Of a stretch of DNA of 46,431 nt, positions 10,293 to 24,884 are shown piece after piece; position 1 is the first letter of the stretch, and each line of letters opens with the position of its first letter. The position numbers were made by a program, and so were the translations under genes. The stretch comes from Actinomycetes bacterium (GTDB taxonomy: Bacteria; Actinomycetota; Actinomycetes; Mycobacteriales; Cryptosporangiaceae), in assembly GCA_025963185.1 (NCBI GenBank), contig JAOPVE010000303.1, forward strand, positions 1 through 46,431, in the 5' to 3' direction. The notes below the pieces were generated by a model that searched no databases, was not told where the DNA came from, and saw nothing but the letters and a program-made list of their open reading frames with translations.

Positions 10293-12008
10293 ATGGGCAA
10301 CGAACCTGCGCGAACCCCGCTGGAGCGCTCGGTGAGCGGCGGACCGGGCGGCCTGCCGCTGCTCGCGTCCAAACTCGCGATCCCGTCGGCCCAGGTGGGG
10401 ATGCTCAGCCGCCCGCGGCTCGAACACGCCCTGGACGAGGCCGTCCGGCGGCCAGTCACCGTCGTGTCCGCCCCGCCGGGCTGCGGCAAGAGCACGCTGC
10501 TCGCGATGTGGGCCGTCTGCGCGGTACCGCGGCTGCCGATCGCCTGGCTGACACTCGACGCCGCGGACGGGGCCGATCGGTTCTGGCAGTACCTGCACGC
10601 CGCGCTGCTCACCTTCCCGCTGCTGGCCGCCGGCGGCGACAGCCTGCCGGCCCCGGCCCGGGGCGCGGACGCGGCCTTCCTCACCCGGATCGCCGACGCG
10701 CTCGCCAGGCTCACCCACCCAGTGGTACTTGTCCTCGACGACTTCCACGAGGTCACGGATCCGGTCGCGCTGGCGGGCCTGTCCTTCCTGGTCCGGCACG
10801 CCAACGGTCAGCTCCGGCTGGTGCTGTCGACCCGGACCGATCCGGCGCCGGCCATGCCGATCCAGCGCTGGCGGGTACAGGACGAGCTCGCCGAACTGCG
10901 GGCGGCCGACCTCGCGTTCACCCCGGCCGAGTGCGCCGAGCTGCTCGGCCGCGAACAGTACGTGCTCAGCCAGTCCCAGCACGCGACCCTGCAGACCCGC
11001 ACGGAGGGCTGGCCGGCCGGGCTCCGGCTCGCCGCCCTGTCGCTGCGCGGATCCGAGGATCGCGACCGGGACGTCCGCCAGTTCGGGGGCGGTCACGGCA
11101 ACGTGGCGGACTACCTGGTGGAGGAGGTCTACTGCGCGCAGCCGCCGGAGGTCCGTGAGTCGCTCGCCGCCGGATCCGTCCTCGGCCGGCTATGCGGCGA
11201 CCTGCTCGACGCCCTGACCGGCCGGGCGGACGGCGAGCGGGTCCTCGCCGGGCTCGCCCACGCGAACTCCTTCGTCGTGGCCACTGGGGGAGACCTCGGC
11301 TGGTACCGCTACCACCGGCTGTTCCGCGACCTGCTGTTCGCCGAACTGCACCAGCAGGCGCCACACCGGATCGGCGAACTGCACCGCAGGGCCGCCGGCT
11401 GGCACGCGTGCTGGGGCAGCCCCCTGCTGGCGATGCGGCACGCGCTCGCGGGCGAGGACTGGCCCTGCGCCGTCGCCTCCCTCGCGGCGCACTGGGACGA
11501 GTTCGGCCCGGATCCGGACAGCGAGTCGCTCTGGCCCGTACCCGCGCCGCCGCCCCAGCAGGCGATCCTCGCCGATCCGCAGCTCGCACTGGCCTTCGCC
11601 GCGGACCGGCTCGCGATGTGCGACGTCCCCGGCGCCGAGACCTACCTGCGGACGGCCGGTGCCCACCGGCGGCTGGTCGCGCCCGAGCACGGCGACCGGT
11701 TCGCGCTGATCCTGAGCGCGTTCCAGCTCGCCTGCTGGCAGCTGCGCGGGGATCCGGCCGCGATCACGCCGCTGGCGAACGGGCACGCCGTCGATGCGGA
11801 CTCCGGCGTCGCCGCCGAGGTGCTGAGCGAGCGCGAGCTGACGGTCCTGCACTACCTGCAGAGCCCGCTGTCCAACGCGGAGATCGCCGGCCAGCTCACA
11901 GTGTCGGTGCACACGGTGAAGACGCACGTCCGCAACATCTACCGCAAACTCGGCGTGGCCCGCCGCCGCGAGGCGATCCGCCGAGCCCGCCACCTCAACC
12001 TGCTGTGA
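10293..12008 (+). CDS. LuxR-family ATPase transcriptional regulator (short MalT/LAL type)
   Basis: The 571-residue regulator has a STAND-type P-loop (SAPPGCGKSTLL, about 59-70), a Walker B-like stretch (VVLVLDDFHEV), the following winged-helix region (QTRTEGWPAGLRLAALSL) typical of MalT-like proteins, and a C-terminal LuxR HTH (LSERELTVLHYLQSPLSNAEIAGQLTVSVHTVKTH...). Typical MalT/LAL regulators are about 900 residues; here the TPR sensor region is largely missing, so the protein goes from ATPase to HTH through a short helical segment. The start at 10293 (MGNEPARTPLERS) is chosen because residues upstream are not family-like; no strong ribosome-binding site is visible. It is divergent from dnaK. 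Its inducer and targets are unknown. Confidence 0.85.
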   Translation: MGNEPARTPLERSVSGGPGGLPLLASKLAIPSAQVGMLSRPRLEHALDEAVRRPVTVVSAPPGCGKSTLLAMWAVCAVPRLPIAWLTLDAADGADRFWQYLHAALLTFPLLAAGGDSLPAPARGADAAFLTRIADALARLTHPVVLVLDDFHEVTDPVALAGLSFLVRHANGQLRLVLSTRTDPAPAMPIQRWRVQDELAELRAADLAFTPAECAELLGREQYVLSQSQHATLQTRTEGWPAGLRLAALSLRGSEDRDRDVRQFGGGHGNVADYLVEEVYCAQPPEVRESLAAGSVLGRLCGDLLDALTGRADGERVLAGLAHANSFVVATGGDLGWYRYHRLFRDLLFAELHQQAPHRIGELHRRAAGWHACWGSPLLAMRHALAGEDWPCAVASLAAHWDEFGPDPDSESLWPVPAPPPQQAILADPQLALAFAADRLAMCDVPGAETYLRTAGAHRRLVAPEHGDRFALILSAFQLACWQLRGDPAAITPLANGHAVDADSGVAAEVLSERELTVLHYLQSPLSNAEIAGQLTVSVHTVKTHVRNIYRKLGVARRREAIRRARHLNLL

Positions 12009-12043
12009 CCCCGCACCGCGAAGCGCTGCACTCCCTTTTCCGC

Positions 12044-12093
12044 GAAGCGCGGTAACTCCGGCCGGTCGGGACCGGCCGGAGTTACCGCACTTC
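12044..12093. repeat. Intergenic palindromic element, copy A (likely bidirectional terminator)
   Basis: A near-perfect inverted repeat has 24-base arms (one mismatch) separated by GG; the left arm begins GAAGCGCGGTAACTCC and the right arm ends GGAGTTACCGCACTTC. It lies between the converging LuxR-type and YibE/F genes and supplies the last codons and stop of the latter (GAA GTG CGG TAA). The same element recurs at 14478 and 29016, with a variant at 44874. A perfect GC-rich hairpin between convergent ends suggests transcription termination; no T-run follows. Confidence 0.8.
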
Positions 12094-13341
12094 CGAGGAG
12101 GTGGCGTGGCGGCCGCGGGTACGGGCCGGGGCTGCGGGGGTGGCGGCGTCCACGGGGGCGGTGGCGCGGGGCAGGCGGCTCGCGGCGAGGGCGGCGAGTG
12201 CCGTGGTGACCGGCACGGCGGCGATCAGCCCGAGAGTGCCAACCCCGCTGCGGACCAGTTCCTCGGCGATCTGCTGGCTCGTCAGAAGCTGCCCGAGCGG
12301 CTGGCTGGCCGCGGCGATGAGGATCAGGACTGGGAGCGAGGCCCCGGCGTAGGCCAGGATGATCGTGTTGATCACCGAGGCGATGTGCGCGCGCCCGACC
12401 CGGGTGGCCGCCCGGTACAGCTCGCGGAACCGGTACGCGGGATTGGCGGCCGCGAGTTCGGTGACCGTGACGGATTGGGTCACCGCCACGTCGTCGAGCA
12501 CCCCGAGCGATCCGATGACGATCCCAGCGAGCAGCAGGCCCTGCATGTTCACCCCGGCGAACGTGGTGCTCACGAACGTGGTGTCGTCACTGGACACGCC
12601 GGTCAGGTGCGCGGCCGCGGAGAACAGGGCGCCGAGCACGCCGGTCAGGACCAGGCTCACCAGGGTGCCCATGACCGCGATGGCCGTGGGCAGGTTGATC
12701 CCGTGGGTCAGGAACAACACCGAGAGCATGATCGCCGCGGATCCGGCGATGGCCACGAGCAGCGGTGACTCCCCCGCCAATATCGCCGGGACGATGAACA
12801 CGAGCAGCACCGCGAACGTCAGCGCGAGCCCGGCGAGCGCGCTGAGCCCCCGCCAGCGCCCGAACGCGATCACCGCGAGGGCGAACGCCGCCATGAGCGC
12901 CCACAGCGAGGTGGACCGCTGCTGGTCGATGATGTGGTAAGCACTCGCCGGATCGACGTCGGGCAGGTAGACGAGCACCACCGAGTCGCCGGGGGACACC
13001 TGCGGCGCTCCGGGGCCGAACGGGATCCCGGTCCTGATCCGGTGGCCAGAGTCCTTGCCGCTGGTCAGCCGGACCTGGACGTCGCCGCAGGTCTGGCCGT
13101 CCGGCGTGTCCCCGGGGGTGGCGGGCGGGCAGGCCGTGCGGGTGACCGACAGCACGTCGCCGTTGGCCTGCGTGGGCGCGGTGCCGAGGTCGGGCCGGTG
13201 CGCGGACGAGCCCGGCCACAGCCACACGAGCGCGACGAGGGTGAGCACCGCGCAGGGCACGAGGATCGCGGCGAGGACCGCCGCGGTGCGTCCCCGCAGC
13301 GGCGGCCCGGCGGATGCGTCGTGGGAGTGACTGTGGCCCAT
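12082..13341 (-). CDS. YibE/F-family membrane protein
   Basis: The 419-residue protein has a His-rich N-terminus (MGHSHSHD), one N-terminal membrane helix, an extracytoplasmic segment of about 100 residues and then seven or eight further helices (for example STSLWALMAAFALAVIAFGRW; GLLLAGIVIGSLGVLDDVAVTQ). The last matches the conserved YibE/F segment G.LG.L.DVAV.Q. The family has no settled function; transport of an unknown solute has been suggested. The start is the ATG at 13341, immediately before the HSHSH motif; the frame upstream is not conserved. The C-terminal residues EVR and the TAA stop come from intergenic palindrome copy A. The His-rich start and nearby Zur-type sites make a metal link possible, but no such site precedes this gene. 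Confidence 0.85.
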   Translation of the reverse strand: MGHSHSHDASAGPPLRGRTAAVLAAILVPCAVLTLVALVWLWPGSSAHRPDLGTAPTQANGDVLSVTRTACPPATPGDTPDGQTCGDVQVRLTSGKDSGHRIRTGIPFGPGAPQVSPGDSVVLVYLPDVDPASAYHIIDQQRSTSLWALMAAFALAVIAFGRWRGLSALAGLALTFAVLLVFIVPAILAGESPLLVAIAGSAAIMLSVLFLTHGINLPTAIAVMGTLVSLVLTGVLGALFSAAAHLTGVSSDDTTFVSTTFAGVNMQGLLLAGIVIGSLGVLDDVAVTQSVTVTELAAANPAYRFRELYRAATRVGRAHIASVINTIILAYAGASLPVLILIAAASQPLGQLLTSQQIAEELVRSGVGTLGLIAAVPVTTALAALAASRLPRATAPVDAATPAAPARTRGRHATSSEVR

Positions 13342-13560
13342 GGGGTGACCTCGGGGGGCTGTGGGGCGGGGGCTGGCTGCCGCCACTGTACGTAGCGCGG
13401 CGGTCCGGCGCGGGACACGGGCGGGCGGCGCCCGGCGGTCCGGCGGCGACGTTTTCATCCCGCGCGGGCGACCCACACACACCCCGAGGCGTCCTACCAT
13501 CGGCGAGACGGCAGGGCGCGAGCCCCGGGCGACGGACCTCGGCACAAGGCGGTGACCAGC

Positions 13561-13929
13561 ATGAGCGTGACACTCAACGAGCGGGCCTACGAGCACGCGC
13601 GGCGCCTCGCGGGCGAGGGAAAGGCCGTTCTGGACGAGCGAGACGACTGGAGCGAGCACCGGCCCTCGGCGCAGCAGGAGAACGACTTCCTCGCCGAGCA
13701 CGGCTACGACGAGTACGGCAGGTGGTACCTCGGGATCGACGACGAGCATCCGGCCGACACCAAGGGCCACTACAAGTTCCCGTACGGCGACTTCGAGCGG
13801 GTACACCGCTGCGGGGTCCTGTCCGCCGAGTCCCGGGCGGCGCAGAACGACTACACCGACATCGAGGTCGCGGCGGCCCACCTGCACGGGCTGCTCGACG
13901 GCAGCACGAGCCCCGCCCCGCGCCGCTGA
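13561..13929 (+). CDS. Conserved actinobacterial hypothetical protein
   Basis: The 122-residue soluble, acidic protein (MSVTLNERAYEHARRLAGEGKAVLDERDDWSEHRPSAQQENDF...) resembles short conserved proteins I associate with Streptomyces and relatives. It contains a W-S-E-H-R-P-S segment, a GYDEYGRWYLGID core and a KGHYKFPYGDFERVHRCGVL motif. No function is known to me. The ATG at 13561 is preferred over GTG at 13552 because AAGGCGG (13545-13551) is nine bases upstream of the ATG but abuts the GTG. It is divergent from the YibE/F gene and converges on the next gene, separated by a strong hairpin. Confidence 0.8.
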   Translation: MSVTLNERAYEHARRLAGEGKAVLDERDDWSEHRPSAQQENDFLAEHGYDEYGRWYLGIDDEHPADTKGHYKFPYGDFERVHRCGVLSAESRAAQNDYTDIEVAAAHLHGLLDGSTSPAPRR

Positions 13930-13941
13930 TGCGCCGGGCTG

Positions 13942-13968
13942 CCCGGCCCGCCGCCGGGGCGGGCCGGG
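13942..13968. terminator. GC-rich hairpin between convergent genes
   Basis: A perfect 11-base stem (CCCGGCCCGCC with GGCGGGCCGGG) and a 5-base loop lie in the 48-base gap between two converging genes. No T-run is present on either side. Position and stability suggest a bidirectional terminator. Confidence 0.6.
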
Positions 13969-13977
13969 GAGCCGGGG

Positions 13978-14379
13978 TCAGCAGTTCACCAGGTCCGGCG
14001 ACTGGTTGAGCAGCTGGGCGGGCACCGAGGTGAAGCGGGCGAGCGCGCCGTCGGCGTCCGCCCCCGCCGCGAACACGGCCACCCGGTGACAGTTCTGGAA
14101 CGCGATCCGGACCGCGAAGTGCCGTCCGAGCACGCCCCGGATCGCGTCGCTCGCCATCGCCCGCAGCAGTTGCGCCCGGTGCTGCTCCGACGGCGGCTCG
14201 GTGCGGTTGTCGGCGAAGATCCGGTCCTGCGGGTTCTGATCGCCGAGCTGCGCGGCGAGTCCCGCGACCAGGTCGTAGGCGTAGGGCAGCGACTCGCGGA
14301 CGCACTGGGCGAACTCGGCGTCGGTGACGTCGCCGGCCTCGGCTTTCTGGAGCAGGTCGGGCGCGACGGTGAGGGACAT
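13978..14379 (-). CDS. Conserved hypothetical protein under a putative Zur site
   Basis: The 133-residue soluble, mostly helical protein contains LPYAYDLVAGLAAQL, a central RAQLLRAMASDAIRGVLGRHF segment and a strongly motif-like FQNCHRVAVF, and ends NQSPDLVNC. I recall similar actinobacterial hypothetical proteins but no function. It has two cysteines plus histidines (NCHRV; terminal C) that could bind metal, which is only an inference. The ATG at 14379 is chosen over 14385 because GGGAG (14386-14390) is six bases upstream of the former and abuts the latter. A Zur-like palindrome lies 27-45 bases upstream of the start, so it is probably derepressed in zinc starvation together with the permease modules. 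Confidence 0.78.
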   Translation of the reverse strand: MSLTVAPDLLQKAEAGDVTDAEFAQCVRESLPYAYDLVAGLAAQLGDQNPQDRIFADNRTEPPSEQHRAQLLRAMASDAIRGVLGRHFAVRIAFQNCHRVAVFAAGADADGALARFTSVPAQLLNQSPDLVNC

Positions 14380-14405
14380 GGGCATCTCCCGTGATTCGAG
14401 TTATT

Positions 14406-14424
14406 GATAACGGTAATCATTACC
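14406..14424 (-). promoter_or_regulatory. Putative Zur box, site A
   Basis: GATAACGGTAATCATTACC includes the perfect palindrome GGTAAT-C-ATTACC and aligns with three other sites in the window (16449, 16498, 20071). Invariant positions across all four are GATAA, T at 9, C at 13 and TAC at 16-18. It ends 27 bases upstream of the ATG at 14379. AT-rich sequence is rare in this window, which makes these sites stand out. Confidence 0.7.
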
Positions 14425-14477
14425 AACCCTTACTCAGCAGTCAACGCCCCGGCGTGGTGACGCGCCGGCCTTGCTTC

Positions 14478-14529
14478 CGAAGTGCGGTCACTGTGGCCGG
14501 TCGGGACCGGCAGCAGGTACCGCACTTCG
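14478..14529. repeat. Intergenic palindromic element, copy B
   Basis: The arms begin CGAAGTGCGGT and end ACCGCACTTCG, with a GCCGGTC-GG-GACCGGC core; the outer and inner arm parts pair and the middle is diverged. It lies 11 bases downstream of the TIGR03943-type gene stop and before the next gene on the same strand, consistent with a terminator. It shares outer arms and core with copies A and C. Confidence 0.75.
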
Positions 14530-14539
14530 CGGGCGGGGG

Positions 14540-15277
14540 CTACTCGTACGGGTTCTCGGGGCGGGAGGTCAGGGTGGCGGTGGCCGCGTGGATCCGCGGT
14601 ACGGCCCGCGCCGGATCCCGCTCGGCGCTGGCGGTCCACGATCCGGTCACCGTGACCCAGGCGTCGGTGGCGAAGCTGCTCCGCGATCCGTCGACCTCGA
14701 CCTTGACGGTCCGGGCGTCGGCGGCGCAGCAGGTCAGAGTGGCGCGCGCGAGGTACCAGCCGCCTCCCGCCTGCGGCACCGCGAAGCCGGACAGGCGGAC
14801 GGTCCGGCCGCTCAGGGTGCGGCCCTGGTCCCAGGTGGCGCGCGCCGCGTAGTCCCGCACAAGCAGCGCCACGATGCCACCGGACCGCAGCGGCGCGAAC
14901 CGCAGGGACGCCGGCCTGGGCACCGTCGCCCCGGTGCGATTGGCCGCGTAGGACCCCAGTGGCGGCGGCGGGACCAGCAGGATCACCGCCATCGGGATCC
15001 CGAACAGCCACCCGGACCACGGTGCGCGTCCGCCGTGATCGTGCCCGTCATCGGCCCCAGCCTGACCCGGATCAGCCTGACCCGGATCAGCCTGCCGTGG
15101 GAACACCGCGTCGAGCAGGAAGCTCGCGAGCCCGAGGACGGTGACCCCGAGGGATGCCGCGACCAGGTACGGCTGGAGCGACGGCTTGACGTAGTTGAGG
15201 TACTCCCCGAACAGGGCGAGCCGCAGCATGATGACCCCGGCGACGGCCACGAAGACGCCCTGCACCTCCCGGCTCAC
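14540..15277 (-). CDS. TIGR03943/DUF1980-family permease partner, copy 1
   Basis: The 245-residue protein has two N-terminal membrane helices, a cytoplasmic loop, a third helix (WLFGIPMAVILLVPPPPLG) and an extracytoplasmic domain with the family motif T-C-C-A-A-D-A (GWYLARATLTCCAADARTVKV). It belongs to the partner family of COG0701 permeases (YcgQ-like). The GTG start overlaps the permease stop (GTGA), so the pair is translationally coupled. The paired cysteines are conserved in copy 2 (21169-21903). The loop holds an in-frame tandem repeat (QADPGQADPGQAG) and DDGHDHGG, which may bind metal. Zur-like sites upstream of the permease suggest a role in zinc acquisition or handling; the transported species is not established. 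Confidence 0.85.
   Translation of the reverse strand: MSREVQGVFVAVAGVIMLRLALFGEYLNYVKPSLQPYLVAASLGVTVLGLASFLLDAVFPRQADPGQADPGQAGADDGHDHGGRAPWSGWLFGIPMAVILLVPPPPLGSYAANRTGATVPRPASLRFAPLRSGGIVALLVRDYAARATWDQGRTLSGRTVRLSGFAVPQAGGGWYLARATLTCCAADARTVKVEVDGSRSSFATDAWVTVTGSWTASAERDPARAVPRIHAATATLTSRPENPYE
15058..15094. repeat. 15-bp in-frame tandem repeat in the TIGR03943-type gene
   Basis: CAGCCTGACCCGGAT occurs twice in tandem (15058-15072, 15073-15087), followed by the first seven bases of a third copy. On the coding strand it encodes repeated Gln-Ala-Asp-Pro-Gly in the cytoplasmic loop. Being a multiple of three, it can change length without frameshift. Confidence 0.85.
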
Positions 15278-16245
15278 AGCAGCACCGTTCCGGTGACGGC
15301 GGCGGCCACGACGGCGACCACGAAGACCATCGGCGCGAACCGGGTCGCGAACGCGCGGCCGAAGGTGGCCGACTGCAGGGCGATCAGCTTGAGGTCCACG
15401 ACCGGCCCGACGACGAGGAAGATCAGCCGGGCCGTCATCGGGAAACCGGCGAGGCTGGCCGCGACGAAGGCGTCCGCCTCGGAACACACCGCCAGCAGCA
15501 CCGCGAGCACGGCGAGGACCAGCGCCGACACCACGGGGATCCCGGCCACCGCGGTGATCCAGCCCGGCGGCACGGCCACGTTGAGGGTCGCCGCCATTGC
15601 CGCTCCGACCACGAGGAACCCACCGGCGTGCAGGAGGTCGTGCTGCACGGTGAGCCGGAAGGCCTCGGTGCCCGGCCGGGTGCCGCCGAACCGCCGCTGG
15701 GGGATCCGCAGCCAGCCCGGCCGCCCGAACCGCGCCCACAGCCAGCCCACCACCACGGCGGTGCCCAGCGAGGCGGCGAAACGCGCCAGAACCATGTTCG
15801 GGACCTGCGGAAACGCCACCGCCGTCGACACCAGCACCACCGGGTTGATCGCCGGGGCGGACAGCAGGAACGCCAGCGCGGCGGGCACGGTGACCCCGCG
15901 GGCGACCAGTCCCCCGGCGACCGGGACGGACGCGCACTCACACCCCGGCAGGATCGCGCCGGCCAGCCCCGCCGCCGGTACGGCGATCGCCGGGTGCCTC
16001 GGCAGCCGGGCGAACACCGAATCGGGCACGAACGCCGCGATCAGCCCGGACAGCACCACCCCGAGCACGAGGAACGGGAACGCCTGGACCACCACGGCGA
16101 TGAAGATCGTCGACCAGGTCTGCAGGGCGTGACTGCTCCCGCTCAGCAGGTAGTACGCGTTCGGGCCGACGAGCGCCGCGAGGATCGCCCCCATCACGAA
16201 CGTCAGCGCGGGCGGCCTGCGCAGCCGGCCGGTCACCTCGCTCAT
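15274..16245 (-). CDS. COG0701/DUF318-family permease, copy 1
   Basis: The 323-residue protein has about eight to nine membrane helices in two halves. It carries the family motif PGCECASVPVAGGLVARG followed by ALAFLLSAPAINPVVLV, and in the second half CSEADAFVAASL and GPVVDLKL. The buried Cys-x-Cys and Glu are typical of this family (YcgR-like, also related to arsenite-permease-like COG0701 proteins). It is clearly homologous to the permease at 20144-21172. The ATG at 16245 is followed by its coupled partner gene. Zur-like sites lie about 200-270 bases upstream, so this module is probably expressed when zinc is scarce. Direction and substrate of transport are unknown. Confidence 0.85.
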   Translation of the reverse strand: MSEVTGRLRRPPALTFVMGAILAALVGPNAYYLLSGSSHALQTWSTIFIAVVVQAFPFLVLGVVLSGLIAAFVPDSVFARLPRHPAIAVPAAGLAGAILPGCECASVPVAGGLVARGVTVPAALAFLLSAPAINPVVLVSTAVAFPQVPNMVLARFAASLGTAVVVGWLWARFGRPGWLRIPQRRFGGTRPGTEAFRLTVQHDLLHAGGFLVVGAAMAATLNVAVPPGWITAVAGIPVVSALVLAVLAVLLAVCSEADAFVAASLAGFPMTARLIFLVVGPVVDLKLIALQSATFGRAFATRFAPMVFVVAVVAAAVTGTVLL

Positions 16246-16448
16246 GTCCGCTCCCCAGTGCGTGCCGTGACGATCCCGGCGCGTGCCCCACCGCGGACGC
16301 TACCTGCACAAAGGCCGTCGGGCGCAGACCCGCAACGGTGGCGGCGCGCTCGGTGCCGGCGAACCCGGAGTCCGACCTCGGGGCACCTCCGGTGTAGCGC
16401 CTTCACCGTGCCGGTTCCGACGATCCCGTCGATGTCGCCGGGGGGACT

Positions 16449-16466
16449 GTAGTGAAAATAGTTATC
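16449..16466 (-). promoter_or_regulatory. Putative Zur box, site B1 (toward permease module 1)
   Basis: Read on the minus strand this is GATAACTATTTTCACTAC, matching the four-site consensus at every invariant position. It also overlaps TGAAA...TTTCA (16453-16472), an inverted repeat of the classical Zur/Fur style. It lies about 205 bases upstream of the permease start and 32 bases from site B2, so one intergenic region could control both directions. Confidence 0.65.
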
Positions 16467-16497
16467 GTTTCAGTAGACTCCGGGCACTTTGTGGTCC

Positions 16498-16515
16498 GAT
16501 AATCATTTCCGTTAC
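16498..16515 (+). promoter_or_regulatory. Putative Zur box, site B2 (toward HTH regulator)
   Basis: GATAATCATTTCCGTTAC matches the consensus shared with sites A, B1 and C. It ends 31 bases upstream of the GTG start of the HTH regulator, where it would overlap or abut the promoter and block it when Zur binds zinc. Confidence 0.68.
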
Positions 16516-16546
16516 TGACCTGTCCGGCTCGCTCGCGGAGGCACTG

Positions 16547-17494
16547 GTGGATCCCGCTGGCACGACGTCCGCGGATCCCAACCCCGCCGGCGATCCGGAT
16601 CCGGGGCAGCCCGCGTTCCACATCGCGCTGCGGGCGGCGATCGAGGCGCGCGGCCTGACGCTCGAGCGGCTCCACGTGCGGCTCGCCCAGCGCGGGATCC
16701 AGGTGTCGGCGGCGAGCCTGAGCTACTGGCAGCACGGCCGCACCAGGCCCGAGCGGCCGGACTCGCTGCGCGCGCTCGACGTCCTCGAAGAGGTGCTCGG
16801 CGTGGCCACCGGATCCCTGCGCTCGCTGCTCGGTCCCCGCCGGCCGCCCGGCCCGCGGAGCCTGCGGGGCACGGTGGCAGATCGCCCGGAGGAGCTCATG
16901 GGCGTCGGCGAGCCCCTGACCAGGCTGCTCGACCAGTTACCCCGGTCCCGCAACAACGACCTGGACCTGGTCAGCCAGCACGAGTGCGTGACCGTCGACG
17001 CCCACCGGCGGATCGCCGAGGTGTCGAGCACCGCCCTGGCCGCCGCACGGCGCGACGGCGTCGACCGGTACTACACCGTCTACCAGGGCGATCCGGGCTG
17101 TGACGTGCGCCGGATGGAGGTCGAGGCGGTCCGCGACTGCACGGTCGGGCGGGTGCTGCGCGACCCCGCCGCGGGACTGCTGGTGGGCGAACTGCTCCTC
17201 GGCTGGGAACTGGCCCGCGGCGATACCCACCTGTTCGGCTTCCGGATCACCGACGGCACGGCCGTGAGCACGATCCACAGCCACGGGTTCCGCTACCGGG
17301 TGAGCCAGTTCGTGCTGCAGGTGCGGTTCTCTGCGGCGGCCGTGCCGATCCGCGTGGACGGTTTTGCCCAGACCACATTGGACGGTGACCTCCGGCCCAC
17401 CGGCCAGCTCCACCTCACCCCCCACCACACCGCCCAGCTCGTGTGCAGCGACGCGGATCCCGGTGGCGCGGGCATCGCCTGGACCTGGGAGTGA
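16547..17494 (+). CDS. HTH-domain regulator, probably Zur-controlled
   Basis: The 315-residue soluble protein has an N-terminal XRE-like helix-turn-helix (ALRAAIEARGLTLERLHVRLAQRGIQVSAASLSYWQHGRTRPERPDSLRALDVLEEVLGV, about 25-85) and a C-terminal half (about 130-315) of mostly beta-strand character that I do not recognise, with several histidines (STIHSHGFRYRV; LTPHHTAQ). The GTG at 16547 is chosen because GGAG lies six bases upstream and the HTH begins shortly after; the longer frame runs through the Zur boxes and is unlikely. Site B2 just upstream suggests it is a second-tier regulator within the zinc response (inference). The C-terminal domain might bind a metal or small ligand. Confidence 0.75.
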   Translation: MDPAGTTSADPNPAGDPDPGQPAFHIALRAAIEARGLTLERLHVRLAQRGIQVSAASLSYWQHGRTRPERPDSLRALDVLEEVLGVATGSLRSLLGPRRPPGPRSLRGTVADRPEELMGVGEPLTRLLDQLPRSRNNDLDLVSQHECVTVDAHRRIAEVSSTALAAARRDGVDRYYTVYQGDPGCDVRRMEVEAVRDCTVGRVLRDPAAGLLVGELLLGWELARGDTHLFGFRITDGTAVSTIHSHGFRYRVSQFVLQVRFSAAAVPIRVDGFAQTTLDGDLRPTGQLHLTPHHTAQLVCSDADPGGAGIAWTWE

Positions 17495-17530
17495 CGGGCG
17501 GACCCCAAAACGACGCGAAGCGCCGTTAAG

Positions 17531-17550
17531 TGAACAGAAGGCGCTGTTCA
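17531..17550. promoter_or_regulatory. Perfect inverted repeat upstream of the subtilase
   Basis: TGAACAG-AAGGCG-CTGTTCA is a perfect 7+7 inverted repeat in the 179-base gap between the HTH gene and the secreted subtilase. It could be a weak terminator for the upstream gene or an operator for the downstream one. No T-run follows. Confidence 0.4.
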
Positions 17551-17673
17551 GGCGGCCCGGCGGTCCCGTATACCCCTTTCAGCACAGTCCGTCTCCACCG
17601 CGCTCTGTCTCCACCACCGTTCAGCCTGTCCCCCACCCGCAGCCTCCCCTATCCCTAGCCAGGAGGAATCGCC

Positions 17674-19308
17674 GTGACCGACTTAGTCCCTCGCCGGAGA
17701 TCCGTGCACACGCGCCAGCTGGCCGTGGTTACCGCGGCCGCCGCCACCGCTCTGCTCGCGACCGCCCTGCTCGCCGCCGCGCCCGCGATGGCCGCGCCAG
17801 CCGCGGCCCAGGGCGTCATCGTGAACGCCGGTGGCAGCGGCGCGATCCCGGACAGCTACATCGTCGTCCTCAAGAACTCGGCGTCCCTGCGCTCGGCCGC
17901 GAGCGTCACAGCCACCGCGGACGGGCTCGCCGGCCGCCACGGCGCCAAGGTCACCCGCACCTACCACTCGGCGCTCACCGGATTCGCCACGACGGTGAAC
18001 GAGGCCGGCGCCAAGGCGCTCGCGGCGGATCCGTCGGTCGCCATGGTCGAGCAGGACCACGCCGTGCACCTCGACGGCACCCAGGCCAGCCCGCCGTCCT
18101 GGGGCCTGGACCGGATCGACCAGCGCAACCTGCCGCTCGACAACTCGTACACGTACCCGACGACAGCGTCGAACGTGCACGCCTACATCATCGACACCGG
18201 CATCCGGCTGACCCACGTAGCATTCGCCGGCCGCGCGGTCTCCGGCCATGACTTTGTGGACAACGACAACGACGCCACCGACTGCCAGGGGCACGGAACG
18301 CATGTCGCCGGCACCGTCGGCAGCGCGGCCTACGGCGTCGCGAAGGGCGTCGCGCTGGTCGCCGTCCGGGTGCTCGACTGCCAGGGCAGCGGCACGGACG
18401 CCGGCGTCATCGCGGGCATCGACTGGGTGACCGCGAACGCGATCAAGCCGGCCGTGGCGAACATGAGCCTGGGCGGCAGCGCCAGCCCCACCCTCGACGC
18501 GGCCGTGGTCAAGTCGATCGCCGCGGGCATCACCTACGGCGTCGCGGCCGGCAACGGCGACGCCTTCGGCAACCCGGCCGACGCCTGCGGCGACTCACCC
18601 GCCCGGGTGCCCGCCGCGATCACCGTCGGCGCCACCCAGAGCAACGACGCCAAGGCCTCGTTCTCCAACTACGGCACCTGCCTAGACATCTTCGCCCCGG
18701 GCGTGAACATCACCTCGTCGTGGGGAACCAGCGACACCGGGACCAACACGATCAGCGGGACGTCGATGGCGACGCCGCACGTCGTGGGCGCGGCCGCGCT
18801 GGTGCTCTCCGCCCACCCGGACTACACCCCCGCCCAGGTGCGTGACCAGCTCGTCGCCGACGCCACCTCCGGCAAGGTCACCAGCCCGGGCACCGGATCC
18901 CCGAACAAGCTGCTCTTCGTCACCGGCAGCGGCACCACCCCGCCGCCGCCCCCGCCGCCGCCGGGCAAGTACTTCGAGAACACCGCGGACGTGCAGATCC
19001 CGGACGCCGGCGCTGCCGTCACCAGCTCGATCGCCGTCACCGGCATCACCGGGAACGCGCCTGCCGCCCTCGCAGTCGGCGTGCACATCAAGCACACCTA
19101 CATCGGTGACCTGGTCGTCGATCTCCTCGCGCCGGACGGCACGGTCTACAACCTCCAGAACCGCACCGGCGGCAGCACCGACAACATCGACCAGACGTAC
19201 CCGGTCAACGCCTCCTCCGAGGTCGCGAACGGCACCTGGAAGCTGCGGGTGCAGGACAAGGCCGCGATCGACACCGGCTACGTCGACTCGTTCAGCCTGC
19301 AGTTCTGA
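17674..19308 (+). CDS. Secreted S8 subtilisin-like protease with P-domain
   Basis: The 544-residue preproprotein has a long actinobacterial signal peptide (basic RRR, then an Ala/Leu-rich core ending AMAAPA near residue 40), an I9-type propeptide ([14 protein letters not shown]...), the S8 catalytic domain with Asp174 (YIIDTGI), His207 (GHGTHVAGT) and Ser364 (GTSMATPH), a poly-proline linker (about 424-431) and a C-terminal proprotein-convertase P-domain (about 435-544, [22 protein letters not shown]). It is exported, autoprocessed and acts as an extracellular endopeptidase. The GTG start is preceded by AGGAGG at good spacing. It sits between two Zur-linked genes but has no Zur-like site of its own. 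A very strong hairpin follows. Confidence 0.95.
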
Positions 19309-19312
19309 CCTC

Positions 19313-19358
19313 ACGTACCGGGCGCCCGGCGGATCCGCCCGCCGGGCGCCCGGTACGT
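19313..19358 (+). terminator. Strong terminator hairpin after the subtilase
   Basis: A perfect 20-base stem (left arm 19313-19332, right arm 19339-19358) has a six-base loop ATCCGC and begins five bases after the subtilase stop. Only two T residues follow, as is common for GC-rich actinobacterial terminators. Confidence 0.85.
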
Positions 19359-19579
19359 TCCCTGCGCCACGACGAGCCCGGAGGGCCCTGCCACCAGCAC
19401 GAACGCCGTAGCGGACCAGCGCCGCACCACCTCCACCATCATCGCGAAACCCCTGTTCACCAACTCGGGCACGCAAACCGACCGCGAACCGCGGCGACCA
19501 CCCGGTGCCGCAAGGGCGGTCCGGATCCGCCGGCGCAGTAGGGTCTTAGCGGAGCCAGAGGAGGATGGACGGTCTCGTG

Positions 19580-20017
19580 ATGAGCAGTGAAGCCGTGGAA
19601 TCGAAGAGCCGGTCGACGCGCCAGGCCGCCGCGATCGAGAGTGCGATGAGCGGTACCGAGGCCTTCCGGAGCGCCCAGGACGTCTACTCCGAGCTGCGCA
19701 GCCGGGGCGAGTCCGTGGGGCTGACGACCGTCTACCGCCGTCTGCAGGCGATGGCCGAGGCCGGATCGCTCGACATCCTCCAGCAGCCCGGCGGCGAGGT
19801 CCTCTACCGGCTGTGCAGCAGCGACCGGCACCACCACCACCTGGTCTGCCGGGTCTGCGGGCGCACGGTCGAGGTCGAGGGGCCTGGTGTCGAGACCTGG
19901 GCCCGCAAGGTCGCCGACCAGCACGGATTCGCGAACCTCGAACACACCCTCGAGCTGTTCGGCACCTGCCTCGACTGCGCCGCCGACGCCGCTCCCCCGG
20001 TGCGCGACGGCAGCTGA
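19580..20017 (+). CDS. zur: Zinc-responsive Fur-family repressor Zur
   Basis: The 145-residue protein has the Fur-family winged helix (AQDVYSELRSRGESVGLTTVYRRLQAMAEAG) and the metal-binding/dimerisation domain with an H-rich strand (SDRHHHHLVCRVCGRTVEVEG) and a closing C-x-x-C (GTCLDCAAD). The VGLTTVYR recognition helix and HHHHLVCR.CG arrangement are characteristic of actinobacterial Zur. It represses zinc-uptake genes when zinc is bound. AGGAGG at 19559-19564 abuts an ATG at 19565 and is 12 and 15 bases from GTG 19577 and ATG 19580, so the start is uncertain. It directly precedes permease module 2, and the four Zur-like sites within about 6 kb are its probable targets. Confidence 0.9.
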   Translation: MSSEAVESKSRSTRQAAAIESAMSGTEAFRSAQDVYSELRSRGESVGLTTVYRRLQAMAEAGSLDILQQPGGEVLYRLCSSDRHHHHLVCRVCGRTVEVEGPGVETWARKVADQHGFANLEHTLELFGTCLDCAADAAPPVRDGS

Positions 20018-20070
20018 GCCACCGGACTCGCCGGCCCGGGGGCCGAGGCCACGAGCGTGCGACCGGTACC

Positions 20071-20088
20071 GTAATGGAAACGGTTATC
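20071..20088 (-). promoter_or_regulatory. Putative Zur box, site C (permease module 2)
   Basis: GTAATGGAAACGGTTATC reads on the minus strand as GATAACCGTTTCCATTAC, matching sites A, B1 and B2 at all ten invariant positions. It ends 55 bases upstream of the GTG start of the second permease and 54 bases after the zur stop. Confidence 0.7.
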
Positions 20089-20143
20089 GGCCCACGTTCA
20101 GCCGCTGACCGGCGGTAGCTGGCGGAGGGATCGAGGACGTGTC

Positions 20144-21172
20144 GTGACGGCCGGCGAACACACCGAGATCGCCCACGGATCCGGCGCGCCCCCGGCCGGC
20201 GGAACCCCGGGAGCGGGATCGCGGTCCTGGGTGCGTCCGGTCGAGGTCCTCGCGGTGGTGCTGGTGCTGGCGCTCGTGAGCCGGGGCTGGATCGTCGGGC
20301 ATACCGGATCGGCGCGGGTGCAGAGCTGGCTGACGATCTTCGTGTCGATCGTGATCCAGGCGTCGCCGTTCGTGGTGCTGGGCACGGTGGTGTCGGCGGC
20401 GATCGCGGTGCTGGTGCCCCCGGCGTTCTTCGCCAGGGTGCTGCCCCGGCGCCCCGCCCTGGCGGTGTCAGTGGCGGCGTGCGCGGGAGTGGTGCTGCCG
20501 GGTTGTGAGTGCGGCTCGGTGCCGGTCGCCGGGGCGCTGGTCCGGCGGGGGGTGACCCCGGCCGCGGCGCTGGCGTTCCTGCTGTCGGCCCCGGCGATCA
20601 ACCCGGTGGTGCTGGTGGCGACCGCAGTCGCGTTCCCCGGCCGGCCCGTCATGGTGCTGGCCCGGCTCGGGGCGAGCCTGCTCACCGCGGTGGTGATGGG
20701 CTGGCTGTGGCTCTGGGCCGGCCGCGCGGACTGGTTCCGCCCACCCGCCCGCCCCGAGCTGGACGGGCTGTCCCGCCCGGCGGCGTTCCTGGCCGCGTGC
20801 CGCCACGACATGACCCAGGCAGGGGGCTTCCTGGTGATCGGCGCGATCACCGCGGCCACCATGAACGTCGCCGTCCCGCCCTCGTGGCTGCACACCGTCG
20901 CCGGGATGCCGATCGTGTCCGTGCTGGCCCTGGCGCTGCTCGCCGTGGTCCTGTCGATCTGCTCCGAGGCCGACGCGTTCGTCGCCGCCTCCCTCACCCA
21001 GTTCTCCCTGACCGCCCGGCTGGCGTTCCTCGTGGTCGGCCCGATGGTCGACCTCAAGCTGTTCGCGATGCAGGCCGGGGCATTCGGGCGCCGGTTCGCG
21101 ATCCGGTTCGCGCCCGCCACGTTCACCGTCGCGGTCCTGGCCGCCGCCGCGGTCGGGGCGCTGGCGTGGTGA
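20144..21172 (+). CDS. COG0701/DUF318-family permease, copy 2
   Basis: The 342-residue polytopic membrane protein is closely similar to the permease at 15274-16245. Shared motifs are PGCECGSVPVAGALVRRG, ALAFLLSAPAINPVVLV, CSEADAFVAASL and GPMVDLKLFAMQ. About 20 hydrophilic residues precede the first helix. The GTG start has GAGGA six bases upstream. The stop overlaps the start of its TIGR03943-type partner (GTGA), and a Zur-like site lies 55 bases upstream. The pair probably forms a membrane complex induced in zinc limitation; substrate and direction are unknown. Two diverged copies in one locus may differ in affinity, metal or assembly state (inference). Confidence 0.87.
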   Translation: MTAGEHTEIAHGSGAPPAGGTPGAGSRSWVRPVEVLAVVLVLALVSRGWIVGHTGSARVQSWLTIFVSIVIQASPFVVLGTVVSAAIAVLVPPAFFARVLPRRPALAVSVAACAGVVLPGCECGSVPVAGALVRRGVTPAAALAFLLSAPAINPVVLVATAVAFPGRPVMVLARLGASLLTAVVMGWLWLWAGRADWFRPPARPELDGLSRPAAFLAACRHDMTQAGGFLVIGAITAATMNVAVPPSWLHTVAGMPIVSVLALALLAVVLSICSEADAFVAASLTQFSLTARLAFLVVGPMVDLKLFAMQAGAFGRRFAIRFAPATFTVAVLAAAAVGALAW

Positions 21173-21903
21173 GCCGGCAGCTGCACGCGCTGATCCTCGG
21201 GCTGGCCGGCGGGGCGCTGGCCAGACTCGCGATCACCGGGGACAGCAGCCGGTACGTGCGGGCCGGACTGCGGCCCTACCTGATCGCCGCCGCCGCCGTA
21301 CTCGTGATCGTCGCGGTCGCCTCCCTCTGGTACCGGCCCGCACCCCAGCCGGACGGCGACCCGCACGAGCACGAGCACGCGCATGGGAACGGGCACGCGC
21401 ATGGGCGGTTCGACGTGGCCTGGCTGCTGGTGGTCCCCATGCTCACCGCCGTGCTCGTGGCCCCGCCCGCCCTGTCCTCGTTCTCGGCGTCCCGGTCCGG
21501 GACCGCGCTGTCGGCCGCCGCGAACTCGGCCATGCCGCCGCTGCCCGCCGGGGACCCCGTCCGAGTCTCGGTGCTGGAGTACGCCAGCCGCGCCGTCTAC
21601 GGCCATGGCACCTCCCTCACCGGCCGGCACCTCACCCTGTCCGGGTTCCTCGTCTCGGGCGGCCCCAACGGCTGGTACCTCACCCGCATGGTCATCACCT
21701 GCTGCGCCGCCGACGCCCAGCCCATCAAGGTCGGGCTCGACGGGGCGATCCCGGCCGGGCTGCACGCCGGGAACTGGATCGAAGCCACCGGCGCCTACAC
21801 CAGTCGCGTCGTCAAGGACAGCGTCAACGGCGAGGACATCCCCTTCCTGCAGGCCAGCACCGTCAAGCCGATCCCCGCCCCCGACCAGCAGTACGTGTCA
21901 TGA
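21169..21903 (+). CDS. TIGR03943/DUF1980-family permease partner, copy 2
   Basis: The 244-residue protein has two N-terminal helices, a histidine-rich loop (HEHEHAHGNGHAHG), a third helix and an extracytoplasmic domain with the conserved T-C-C-A-A-D-A motif (GWYLTRMVITCCAADAQPIKVGLDG). The His loop is richer than in copy 1 and is the type of sequence that binds zinc in transporters. The GTG at 21169 overlaps the permease stop, and the gene's own stop overlaps the ATG of the next gene (ATGA), so three genes are translationally coupled. The shared CC motif suggests a metal or thiol function for the outer domain (inference). Confidence 0.86.
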   Translation: MSRQLHALILGLAGGALARLAITGDSSRYVRAGLRPYLIAAAAVLVIVAVASLWYRPAPQPDGDPHEHEHAHGNGHAHGRFDVAWLLVVPMLTAVLVAPPALSSFSASRSGTALSAAANSAMPPLPAGDPVRVSVLEYASRAVYGHGTSLTGRHLTLSGFLVSGGPNGWYLTRMVITCCAADAQPIKVGLDGAIPAGLHAGNWIEATGAYTSRVVKDSVNGEDIPFLQASTVKPIPAPDQQYVS

Positions 21904-23042
21904 CCAGCACACTCACCACGCCCGTCGCGGACGTTGCCCGGCCCGTGCCCTGGCGGTCCAGAGCCGGGCTCGCCGCGGCCGCCGCCGGAATCGCCGCCGT
22001 GCTCGCCGCACCGGCCCCGCACCGCGCCCCCGCCACCGCGCCAGGACCAGCCCAGACCGGGCCACCCGCCCTCACGGACCGCTGGCCCGGAGCCCGGCCG
22101 TTCCCGATCCGGGCCGTGCTGCCCGGCGGGTTGTCCTACAGCCCGGAGCTGATCCTCGGCCCGTCGCTCACCGCCGGGCTCGCGACCAGTGCGGATCAGG
22201 AGCACCTCTCGGTCGCCGTCGCCCGGTCGGCCGGCCCGGCGCGGATCCTCCAGACCGACATCCCCGGCCTCTCCTCGTTCGACGCCCTCACGGCCAGCGG
22301 CGGATCGCTGTTCTGGATGCGCAGCCGCACCGACGAGTCCGGCCACCAGCACACCAGCCTGTGGACCGCCAGCCTGACCAGCGGATCCGCCCGCCAGCTC
22401 ACCACCGACGCGGGCGCACCGGAGTTCGGCGGCACCCGGTACTCCCTGCAGGCCGAGTCCGGCCACCTGCACTGGACCGGCGGCAATCCCGACGGCGCCG
22501 CGGCCACCACGCTCTACTCGATCGCGGTCACCGGGGGTGCGGTCACCACCCGCAAGATCCCCGGTGTCTGGCAGCTCTCGGCCTGGCCGTGGCTCACCAC
22601 CCCGCCGTCGCCCGGATCCGTGGTGACGCTGCTGAACGCGGTCACTGGCGAGCGCGTCGCGGTGCGGGCGCCCGCGGCCCAGATCACGGTGTGCGGCCCG
22701 GCCTGGTGCCGGATCAGCGCCGGCGACAGCGCGCAGCCACAGGACACCACGGTCATGCACCCCGACGGATCGGCCCGCAGGCGGATCGCCACCGGCGGGA
22801 CCACCGCGATCTCCGACGAGGTCGCCCTCGAAGGCCGGTTCGAGCCGCTCGGCGGGACGATCGACCCGAACGCCGTCACCGCCGCCACGGCGCTCACCCT
22901 CTACGACCTGCGCACCGGGCGCACCGTCATGGTGGATCCGGCGGCCACGGAGGCGCGGGCGTCCGGCGACTACCTGTGGTGGTCCAGCGGCGACAACGAG
23001 ACCCGCGCCTGGCACGGTCTCGACCTGCGCACTCTGCGCTGA
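21900..23042 (+). CDS. Exported protein of the Zur-linked operon, possible beta-propeller
   Basis: The 380-residue protein has a basic N-terminus, a hydrophobic Ala-rich segment (about 21-45, SRAGLAAAAAGIAAVLAAPAP) acting as signal or anchor, and a secreted domain with recurring beta-strand blades (SLFWMRSRTDESGHQHTSLWTASL; YSLQAESGHLHWTGGN; DYLWWSSGDNETRAWHGLDL). The W-rich strands at about 60-residue spacing resemble a six- or seven-bladed propeller, but I recognise no named family. The ATG overlaps the upstream TIGR03943-type gene by ATGA, so it belongs to the putative zinc module. It could be a periplasmic or surface subunit of the transporter. No counterpart accompanies permease copy 1. 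Confidence 0.72.
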   Translation: MTSTLTTPVADVARPVPWRSRAGLAAAAAGIAAVLAAPAPHRAPATAPGPAQTGPPALTDRWPGARPFPIRAVLPGGLSYSPELILGPSLTAGLATSADQEHLSVAVARSAGPARILQTDIPGLSSFDALTASGGSLFWMRSRTDESGHQHTSLWTASLTSGSARQLTTDAGAPEFGGTRYSLQAESGHLHWTGGNPDGAAATTLYSIAVTGGAVTTRKIPGVWQLSAWPWLTTPPSPGSVVTLLNAVTGERVAVRAPAAQITVCGPAWCRISAGDSAQPQDTTVMHPDGSARRRIATGGTTAISDEVALEGRFEPLGGTIDPNAVTAATALTLYDLRTGRTVMVDPAATEARASGDYLWWSSGDNETRAWHGLDLRTLR

Positions 23043-23169
23043 AGCCCCGTGTGTCGCCTGTGGCGCGCCGTGCGATGCCGGCCGGCCGCGACATTGCACG
23101 GGCCGATCGGGTGTGAGGCGGGCTGTCGACGGTATGGCACAGGGGAGCCGTGACCCAAGGAGGCAAGCA

Positions 23170-23712
23170 ATGGAAGTGACAGGCACCACGACGATCCGCA
23201 GGCCGGTCTCTGAGGTTTTCGCCTTCTGGCGGCGCCTGGAGAACCTGTCGATGTTCATGGAACAGCTCGACGACGTGCGGACGACCGGAGAACGCACGAG
23301 CCACTGGCGGTCCAGCGCCCCGTTCGGCCGGAACGTGGAGTGGGACGCCGAGATCACCGAGGACGTGACCGGCGAGCGGCTCGGCTGGCGCTCGTCGGCG
23401 GGCGCCGAGCTGCCGAACGCCGGCGTCGTGATCTTCGCGCCGGCCCCCGACGGGATCAGCACCGAGATCCACGTGGCCATGGAGTACGACATCCCCGGCG
23501 GCGAGGCCGGCAAGGCCATCGCGAAGTTCTTCGGCGACGAACCGAGCCAGCAGCTCGACGACGACCTGCGCCGCCTCAAGCAGCTCCTGGAGACCGGCGA
23601 GATCGTGCGCTCGGACGGCGCCCCCTGGGGCAAGCGCGCCCGCGAGGAGTTCCCGCAGCGCCCCGCCCAGCCACTGACCCCCGAGGAGCGCAAGGAGGTG
23701 CTCGGATCATGA
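23170..23712 (+). CDS. SRPBCC-family (polyketide cyclase/dehydrase-like) protein
   Basis: The 180-residue cytoplasmic protein has a START-like SRPBCC fold: N-terminal strand [28 protein letters not shown], then [31 protein letters not shown] and a long C-terminal helix. Such proteins bind small hydrophobic ligands. AAGGAGG (23157-23163) is six bases upstream of the ATG. The stop overlaps the start of the alcohol dehydrogenase gene (ATGA), so they are translationally coupled, and this SRPBCC-dehydrogenase pairing may form a stress or detoxification unit. The C-terminal 30 residues ([28 protein letters not shown]) are charged and probably disordered. The ligand is unknown. Confidence 0.88.
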
Positions 23713-24884
23713 AGGCCACCGTCTGGGCCGGGCGCAACAGCGTCGAGGTCCGCGAGGTCCCGGATCCGTCGATCCTGAGCCGCCGGGACGCGATCGTCCG
23801 GATCACGTCCACCGCGATCTGCGGCTCGGACCTGCACCTGGTCGACGGGTACATCCCGACGATGCAGAACGGCGACGTGATGGGCCACGAGTTCATGGGC
23901 GAGGTCGTCGAGGTGGGCCCGGGCGTCCCTCCGGACCGGCTGCGGCCCGGCGACCGGGTCGTCGTGCCGTTCCCGATCGCCTGCGGGGCGTGCGCCGCGT
24001 GCGCCAGCGAGCTGTACTCGTGCTGCGAGAACAGCAACCCCAACGCGGGGATCGCCGAGAAGATGTTCGGCCACCCGGTCGCGGGCATCTTCGGCTACTC
24101 GCACCTGACCGGCGGCTTCGCGGGCGGCCAGGCCCAGTACGCGCGGGTGCCGTTCGCCGACGTGGGTCCGCTCAAGATCACCTCGGACCTGTCCGACGAG
24201 CAGGTGCTGTTCCTCTCCGACATCCTGCCCACCGGCTACATGGGCGCCGAGATGTGCGACATCCAGCCCAGTGACGTCGTCGCGGTCTGGGGCGCCGGAC
24301 CGGTCGGCCAGTTCGCGATGGACAGCGCGCGGGCGCTCGGCGCGGCCGCCGTCATCGCCATCGACAAGGAGCCCTACCGGCTGCGGATGGCCGCGGAGGC
24401 CGGGCACATCCCGGTCGACTTCACCGAGGTCGACGTGCGGTCCCAGCTGCTCGAACTCACCGGCGGCCGGGGCCCGGACAAGTGCATCGACGCGGTCGGG
24501 ATGGAGGCCGTCCACGGCGCCTCGCACATCCACGCCTACGACCGGCTCAAGCAGGCCGCCCGCCTGGAGACGGACCGCCCGCACGCGCTGCGCCAGGCGA
24601 TCCTGTCCTGCCGCAGCGGCGGGATCGTCTCGGTGATCGGCGTCTACGGCGGATTCATCGACAAGTTCCCGGCCGGGGCCTGGATGAACCGCGCGCTCAC
24701 CCTGCGGACCGGCCAGTGCCACGTCCACCGGTACATGCAGCCGCTGCTGGAGCGGATCGAGCGTGGCGAGCTCGACCCGACCCGGATCATCACCCACCGC
24801 CTCTCCCTCGACGAGGCGCCGCACGGCTACGACATCTTCAAGAACAAGCAAGACGACTGCGAGAAGGTCGTCCTAACGCCCTGA
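23709..24884 (+). CDS. Zinc-dependent alcohol dehydrogenase (MDR family)
   Basis: The 391-residue medium-chain dehydrogenase has catalytic zinc ligands in [14 protein letters not shown] and [12 protein letters not shown], a structural-zinc cysteine cluster ([22 protein letters not shown], slightly rearranged from C-x2-C-x2-C-x7-C) and the Rossmann motif [29 protein letters not shown]; the Asp after the second strand favours NAD over NADP. It resembles the glutathione-independent formaldehyde/threonine dehydrogenase-like subgroup by its long C-terminal half ([14 protein letters not shown]). It oxidises an alcohol or aldehyde not identifiable from sequence. It is translationally coupled to the SRPBCC gene. 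Its stop lies inside a short tandem repeat followed by a clear terminator. Confidence 0.92.

Follow-up and report, generated by a model that had tools for sequence, protein, structure and literature searches.

The window analysed here is a 46,431-nucleotide stretch of an actinomycete genome of the family Cryptosporangiaceae (GenBank assembly GCA_025963185.1, contig JAOPVE010000303.1). It carries a zur gene for a Fur-family regulator, flanked by two transporter modules that each pair an ArsP_1 permease with a TIGR03943 partner. A gene for a small SCO5389-family protein and four operator-like sites lie in the same region (Table 1). A preliminary description of the sequence had predicted a zinc-starvation Zur regulon that includes the COG0701 and TIGR03943 modules. 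The promoters of znuA, the type and ligands of the regulator, and the recurrence of the boxes support this prediction, and the window very probably (about 0.9) belongs to a genome-wide Zur regulon. As far as sequence can show, the local members are rightly given as the two ArsP_1/TIGR03943 modules, the SCO5389-family protein and the protein encoded at 16547. Regulons of this kind are known; the new part is the composition, above all the predicted SCO5389-family target.

Table 1. Predicted genes and operators around zur, with positions in the window
Feature	Position	Strand	Remarks
SCO5389-family / KH_NucS_shadow protein, 135 aa	13978..14385	-	PF20704, NF040488
Zur operator A, predicted	14405..14425		two overlapping 7-1-7 palindromes, 14405-14419 and 14411-14425, offset 6 bp; ~20 bp from small-protein start (ATG 14385)
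TIGR03943 (DUF1980) partner, module 1	14540..15277	-	TIGR03943 133.8 bits, cut-off 88.8
ArsP_1 (COG0701-type) permease, module 1	15274..16245	-	PF03773 E 1.2e-42
Zur operator B, predicted	16453..16467		7-1-7; ~207 bp 5' of permease module 1 (ATG 16245)
Zur operator C, predicted	16497..16511		7-1-7; holds -10 of promoter-like site directed at 16547 gene; ~35 bp from its assumed start (GTG 16547)
16547 protein, 315 aa	16547..17494	+	start assumed, no confident family; called a helix-turn-helix regulator in the preliminary description
zur, Fur family, actinobacterial Zur type	19565..20017	+	ATG 19580 also possible start
Zur operator D, predicted	20075..20089		7-1-7; ~55 bp 5' of permease module 2 (GTG 20144)
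ArsP_1 permease, module 2	20144..21172	+	PF03773 E 9.9e-44
TIGR03943 partner, module 2	21172..21903	+	159.8 bits, cut-off 88.8; start overlaps ArsP_1 stop
380-aa protein, probable third gene of module 2	21900..23042	+	start overlaps TIGR03943 stop

Operator-like sites and the regulator

Four 18-bp sites agree with GATAAYNRTWWYCRYTAC at every position; they lie at 14406-14423 (plus strand), 16449-16466 (minus), 16498-16515 (plus) and 20071-20088 (minus), just as the preliminary description had proposed. Its ten invariant positions reappear in a column count over the four rows, and its G+C-rich background is borne out by 70-75% G+C across 12001-22000. These four are the only perfect matches to the 18-mer in the genome as searched (5,380,199 bases in 547 contigs, 93% complete; C-numbers below denote its contigs). 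With up to three mismatches, the window contains 8 matches against 0.15 expected in dinucleotide shuffles. The four sites account for four of these, self-overlaps at 14406 and 16449 for three more, and the last lies at 4534. The sites resemble the AT-rich interrupted palindromes of bacterial Zur, as had been stated, but the 18-mer register lies off the symmetry axis and covers one side of a symmetric operator. The symmetric core of each site is a 15-bp (7-1-7) inverted repeat, found 5 times in the window with at most one mismatch (0.04 expected). Each site has the form of an actinobacterial Zur box, a 7-1-7 or 10-1-10 inverted repeat near TGAAAATGATTTTCA, which is the 7-1-7 core given for S. 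coelicolor, with a 10-1-10 repeat in C. glutamicum and M. tuberculosis (PMC2823685). Site A agrees with the cg0042 motif of C. glutamicum at 18 of 21 bases (Table 1 of PMC2823685).

Each site had also been placed upstream of a gene. This holds for the small protein, the 16547 gene and permease 2, and more loosely for permease 1. A scan of 14000-20300 for sigma-70-like promoters found only two (0.2 expected), with their -10 elements within boxes A and C (in box A at 14421-14416, minus strand). This layout is one of repression. Both promoter-like sites belong to the small protein and the 16547 gene. No promoter was recognised for the permeases in the scan, so the sign of permease control is inferred. 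No RNA was detected by Rfam at gathering scores across 12000-24000. Half-site weights of our own, used for ranking boxes, give the four sites scores of 12.1-13.3.

The regulator among the sites is of the Zur type, as proposed. Its product is nearest to S. coelicolor Zur (PDB 3mwm, ScZur, E 6.2e-49) and M. tuberculosis FurB (2o03, E 2.8e-43), with Fur and PerR structures at 2.5e-18 or weaker. All twelve zinc ligands are kept in three sites, D70 C84 H90 H92, H89 H91 E110 H127 and C95 C98 C135 C138, in what we take to be the ScZur numbering. Eleven of the twelve agree with the ligand list in the available passage of PMC2823685, the last residue falling outside that passage. Three Fur-family genes were found in the genome, of which only that in the window comes closest to known Zurs. 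The C58 protein is closest to PDB 3eyy (E 5e-44), presumably S. coelicolor Nur, with Zur structures at 2e-20 or weaker; the C206 protein matches only 3eyy (E 3e-12). By eye, the C206 gene precedes a catalase frame and the C58 gene a YgfZ-like frame. In S. coelicolor and some Frankia, nur precedes a YgfZ-like gene (PMC4531530).

Boxes elsewhere in the genome

The genome-wide motif search that the preliminary description had suggested lands on two znuA promoters. The YGRWAAYNRTTWYCR core (7-1-7) occurs perfectly at eight places, four in the window and four outside: C5:14784 and C5:14892 upstream of znuA, C143:10416 upstream of a second znuA, and C202:10042. Behind the C5 and C143 boxes, Pfam identifies genes for ZnuA, an ABC ATPase and an ABC-3 permease, which places znuABC among the box-bearing genes, as in a Zur regulon. 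The window itself lacks znuABC, as had been noted; the two znuA-led sets that carry boxes are found outside it. A 24-mer consensus derived from published boxes of M. tuberculosis and M. avium (PMC7174638) was also scanned, because circularity was to be avoided. With up to three mismatches it found three places, two of them the znuA promoters and the third site D, against 0 and 1 for a reversed control. The evidential weight lies in the location of the perfect places, not in the count of places with one mismatch.

These locations bear on which protein reads the boxes. The genome has two more Fur-family genes, and the 16547 gene sits between two sites, so another Fur-family protein or the 16547 protein might own them. 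Such an assignment is extremely unlikely, since both znuA promoters carry the motif, which matches published actinobacterial Zur boxes, and neither C58 nor C206 holds a 7-1-7 place. Moreover, a 16547 homologue was labelled in none of the 18 neighbourhoods searched (filtered open reading frames, E 1e-5) despite the boxes there.

The genome contains four TIGR03943 modules, of which two flank zur; in these, adjacent genes score above the cut-offs for ArsP_1 and TIGR03943. On C5, a large protein with no Pfam match is encoded between znuB and the ArsP_1 gene. On C143, a weaker TGAATNTCTNATTCA-like palindrome coincides with the predicted ArsP_1 gene start or lies just ahead of it (L001:340-354, G000:C143:5832), and nearly the same palindrome is placed likewise at the counterparts in three genomes of the sister genus (L091:3310, L092:3248, L093:449). 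It is perhaps a degenerate Zur box. The perfect box at C202:10042-10056 (L085) stands ahead of a gene whose small product is predicted to be a membrane protein, and the gene after that encodes a TauE/SafE-like permease (both labels by eye). This box may mark a further Zur target. Beside the boxes examined, no genes for alternative ribosomal proteins or COG0523 proteins were noticed by eye, with no family search run and a genome that is 93% complete.

The remaining window genes add little. The 16547 protein has no Pfam, NCBIfam or PDB match, with DUF6471 appearing only at E 0.02, and the 380-aa protein matches no Pfam or NCBIfam family. Weak PDB matches of window proteins to aerolysin (E 0.006-0.06) and P450 (E 0.021) were dismissed as chance, and PADLOC returned no match for three proteins. 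A secreted-type subtilase with a proprotein convertase P-domain is encoded at 17674-19308, between the 16547 gene and zur. It was considered as a regulon member and rejected, with no box ahead of it (best score 8.9).

Conservation across the order

Comparable boxes are also seen close to TIGR03943 and SCO5389-family genes of other genera. Of 121 genomes sampled in the order, 66 have TIGR03943 and 117 have ZnuA; the TIGR03943 model also has matches in a cyanobacterium and in B. subtilis. In at least 19 of 56 scorable genomes, TIGR03943 and a listed ZnuA are no more than 10 kb apart, against 0.36 expected; ten of the 66 have no listed ZnuA, and the 19 include the present genome and G035, where the TIGR03943 match is below cut-off. 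Boxes near both gene families were counted with the plain consensus YGAWAAY N RTTWTCR, allowing up to two mismatches. Within about 1.5 kb on either side, 18 of 33 TIGR03943 loci carry one, and 30 permuted motifs give a mean of 1.3 and a maximum of 4. These are 33 of the 34 loci fetched from other genomes, out of a larger number of TIGR03943 matches; the four modules of the present genome and the partial match L098 are left out.

Neighbourhoods were surveyed in 18 hand-picked regions (L-numbers denote loci, G-numbers genomes). Eight contain ArsP_1, and five of these also have a Zur or Zur-like gene (L154, L157, L158, L161, L170). In L158, from a Mycobacterium-like genome, a box, a PPE-family gene and an ArsP_1 gene (2198-5129) are followed by further boxes, genes for COG0523 and ribosomal protein L31, and then a Zur-like gene with ZnuBCA. 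In a genome of the sister genus, L098:2050-2076 (box 14041 in L155) has three overlapping 7-1-7-like cores in 6-bp steps near ZnuA and ZnuC genes.

The small protein at 13978 belongs to the SCO5389 family, with PF20704 at E 3.3e-54 and 182.7 bits (cut-off 27) and NF040488 at 180.3 bits (cut-off 75). It is the only copy found in the genome. PF20704 occurs in 26 of 81 genomes sampled from the order. Residues C26, H87, C97, H98 and C133 each show at least 92% conservation over 26 family rows, numbered from the second Met (14379) in an alignment that includes the present copy and omits L149. Because C26, H87, C97, H98 and the C-terminal Cys are near-invariant, the protein may hold or hand on zinc.

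A box lies within 150 bp of the start at 18 of 26 SCO5389-family loci, and 60 permuted motifs give a mean of 0.47 and a maximum of 9. The 26 loci come from 25 genomes, without the present copy and fragments L151-L153 and with fragment L149, which retains its start; they are not independent, because near relatives are included. Seven of the 11 genera are represented among the boxes, and each of the six families has at least one member with a box 34-97 bp upstream of the start. Among the loci with no near box, L137, L139 and L150 have one about 1 kb upstream, ahead of the preceding gene, which Pfam assigns to the CbiA/ParA type in the L139 and L150 regions and leaves unassigned in the L137 region. 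L134 has a box at -172, and L142, L145, L147 and L148 have only weaker boxes.

A CbiA/ParA-type P-loop NTPase gene stands directly upstream of the SCO5389-family gene in L156, L162, L164 and L165, behind a Zur-like box in the first two. In L154, the NTPase gene follows a box of its own and lies two genes further along, separated by a luciferase-like monooxygenase gene.

An alternative holds that the SCO5389-family protein is outside the zinc response, its box serving another promoter or being a by-product. The Pfam label is only that of a NucS shadow open reading frame, the literature found on SCO5389 amounts to a proteomics table in a redox-status study with no zinc link in the portion available, and eight of 26 loci have no near box. 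This alternative is nonetheless unlikely, given the box at 34-97 bp in members of six families, the L156 and L162 genes that follow a CbiA/ParA-type NTPase gene behind a box, and genome G030, where the SCO5389-family gene lies less than 3 kb from zur and ArsP_1 (L154). A SCO5389-family gene as a predicted Zur target seems to be the new part of the finding. A PDB sequence search with the protein returned nothing useful, and a single-sequence AlphaFold2 model (mean pLDDT 48.3) was too poor for a fold search and was set aside.

Predicted regulon and related systems

Computation shows the sites themselves and where they fall in the genome, the type and ligands of the regulator, and the conservation in the order, and the following model is built on these results. 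When zinc is plentiful, a zinc-loaded Zur dimer would occupy the 7-1-7 boxes and block the overlapping promoters. When zinc falls, Zur would be released, and two ZnuABC importers, the ArsP_1 and TIGR03943 modules and the cytosolic SCO5389-family protein would be made, probably together with the 16547 protein. The ArsP_1/TIGR03943 pair would then work in zinc scarcity. Zur binding, repression and the response to zinc, as well as the direction and substrate of transport, are thus predictions of the model.

Several observations weigh against this reading. Locally, no box precedes zur itself (best score 9.6), the assignment of box B to permease 1 is looser because of its gap, and any AT-rich box set in G+C-rich DNA looks like a -10 element, which weakens the promoter overlap. 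Within the genome, the C5 module lacks a strong box of its own and has just the ones ahead of znuA, some 6 kb upstream. The C202 box adjoins no recognised zinc gene, and boxes A, B and C as well as one C5 box are not found with the mycobacterial consensus. Allowing one mismatch in the 7-1-7 core adds 28 places against 2 per strand for a reversed control, which may understate the background because many of them are of the G+C-rich CGGTNAC kind. One of the 28 lies in box A, C143:7698 is just past the TIGR03943 gene there, and four others examined (C216, C180:15004, C518, C450) are near no recognised zinc gene. Across the order, 15 of 33 TIGR03943 loci at the stringency used and the eight SCO5389-family loci lack a box. 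Moreover, 45 loci fetched by Zur similarity contained no ArsP_1, TIGR03943 or SCO5389-family gene in the fetched DNA, so the neighbourhood of zur is not universal. Finally, the NCBIfam equivalogs that come closest to the permease describe efflux transporters, with matches far below cut-off.

The permeases themselves offer candidate metal-handling sites. C121, E122, C123, C273, S274, E275, D277, D303 and K305 are invariant in 37 ArsP_1 rows, and C177 and C178 of TIGR03943 are kept in 29 of 31 rows. The ArsP_1 GCEC and CSE.D motifs and the TIGR03943 CC pair are the candidates, and together with the near-invariant Cys and His residues of the SCO5389 family they would suit metal handling without proving it. 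PDB sequence searches with ArsP_1 and TIGR03943 gave nothing useful. A role of the pair in zinc scarcity is likely. Direct zinc import by the module is possible but doubtful; it may act by import, metal-ligand export or mobilisation.

ArsP_1 under Zur is not new, because in B. anthracis purified Zur binds in vitro upstream of the ArsP_1-superfamily permease gene BAS1632, which has two Zur boxes (PMC6336718), and in M. avium paratuberculosis the 'putative permease' MAP3766 rises 6.83-fold under the zinc chelator TPEN (PMC4298942). These cases bear on the sign of control. Zur might bind the boxes and activate the ArsP_1 modules at high zinc for efflux, like zitB in S. coelicolor, which a review table lists as Zur-activated (PMC6103462). 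For BAS1632, the B. anthracis study deduced positive control from the positions of the boxes (PMC6336718), and box B is far from permease 1. The permeases also weakly resemble the SO_0444 Cu/Zn efflux family NF033936, at 70.5 and 76.1 bits against a cut-off of 300, which leaves them outside it. Activation is nevertheless very unlikely: MAP3766 goes up, not down, under the chelator, TIGR03943 genes cluster with znuA, and boxes A and C hold -10 elements, though for the small protein and the 16547 gene rather than the permeases.

Under the repression model, a broader proposal can be made tentatively, at somewhat less than even odds. The SCO5389 family would be a conserved but overlooked member of the actinobacterial zinc-starvation response, a small Zur-controlled cytosolic protein that binds zinc (through C26, H87, C97, H98 and the C-terminal Cys) and stores it or passes it on, working in some lineages with a CbiA/ParA-type P-loop NTPase. 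The ArsP_1 and TIGR03943 pair would be a widespread second transport module for zinc scarcity beside ZnuABC. If true, the former adds a Cys/His-bearing player to the actinobacterial zinc economy. TIGR03943 genes occur in about half of the order's sampled genomes, and a link to zinc scarcity would give a direct test of the pair's function.

Further relatives may exist outside the order. We take ScfAB of group A Streptococcus to be kin to the ArsP_1 and TIGR03943 pair. ScfAB and YcgR/YcgQ of B. subtilis are each encoded by linked genes for two membrane proteins; ScfA has 8 and ScfB 2 predicted spans, and ScfAB is reported to be important in skin infection, with its function given as unknown (PMC5584981). 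Neither the available text of that paper nor passages from related literature link ScfAB or YcgR/YcgQ to zinc. In the open-licence literature searched, TIGR03943 goes unmentioned, COG0701 is not paired with Zur, and DUF1980 is a table entry of unknown function. Titles on COG3689, YcgQ and UPF0703 include none on zinc, and the available parts of PMC8000910 and PMC9066942 hold nothing further on the topic.

Among characterised systems, the Zur regulon of C. glutamicum is alike in its actinobacterial Zur, its 21-bp 10-1-10 box near site A and its znuABC targets, with binding demonstrated there by shift assay (PMC2823685). Its Table 1 gives znuABC, the COG0523 gene yciC, an oxidoreductase and a secreted protein, and the available text names no ArsP_1/TIGR03943 or SCO5389-family gene. 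In B. anthracis, BAS1632 is under a Firmicute Zur with a 9-1-9 box, and positive control was proposed there, whereas repression is proposed here (PMC6336718). A further likeness is the MAP3765-MAP3776c region of M. avium paratuberculosis, which is TPEN-induced and has a PPE gene with Zur boxes next to the permease, a layout similar to that of L158 (PMC4298942). The PPE gene MAP3765, which adjoins MAP3766, rises 24-fold and has two predicted Zur boxes, and the layout suggests that MAP3766 is an ArsP_1 gene. That region also includes alternative ribosomal proteins, cobW, a Fur-family gene and ABC transporter genes. The published M. avium paratuberculosis list, in the part available, has one such permease gene, whereas the genome studied here has four TIGR03943 modules, two of them around zur (PMC4298942).

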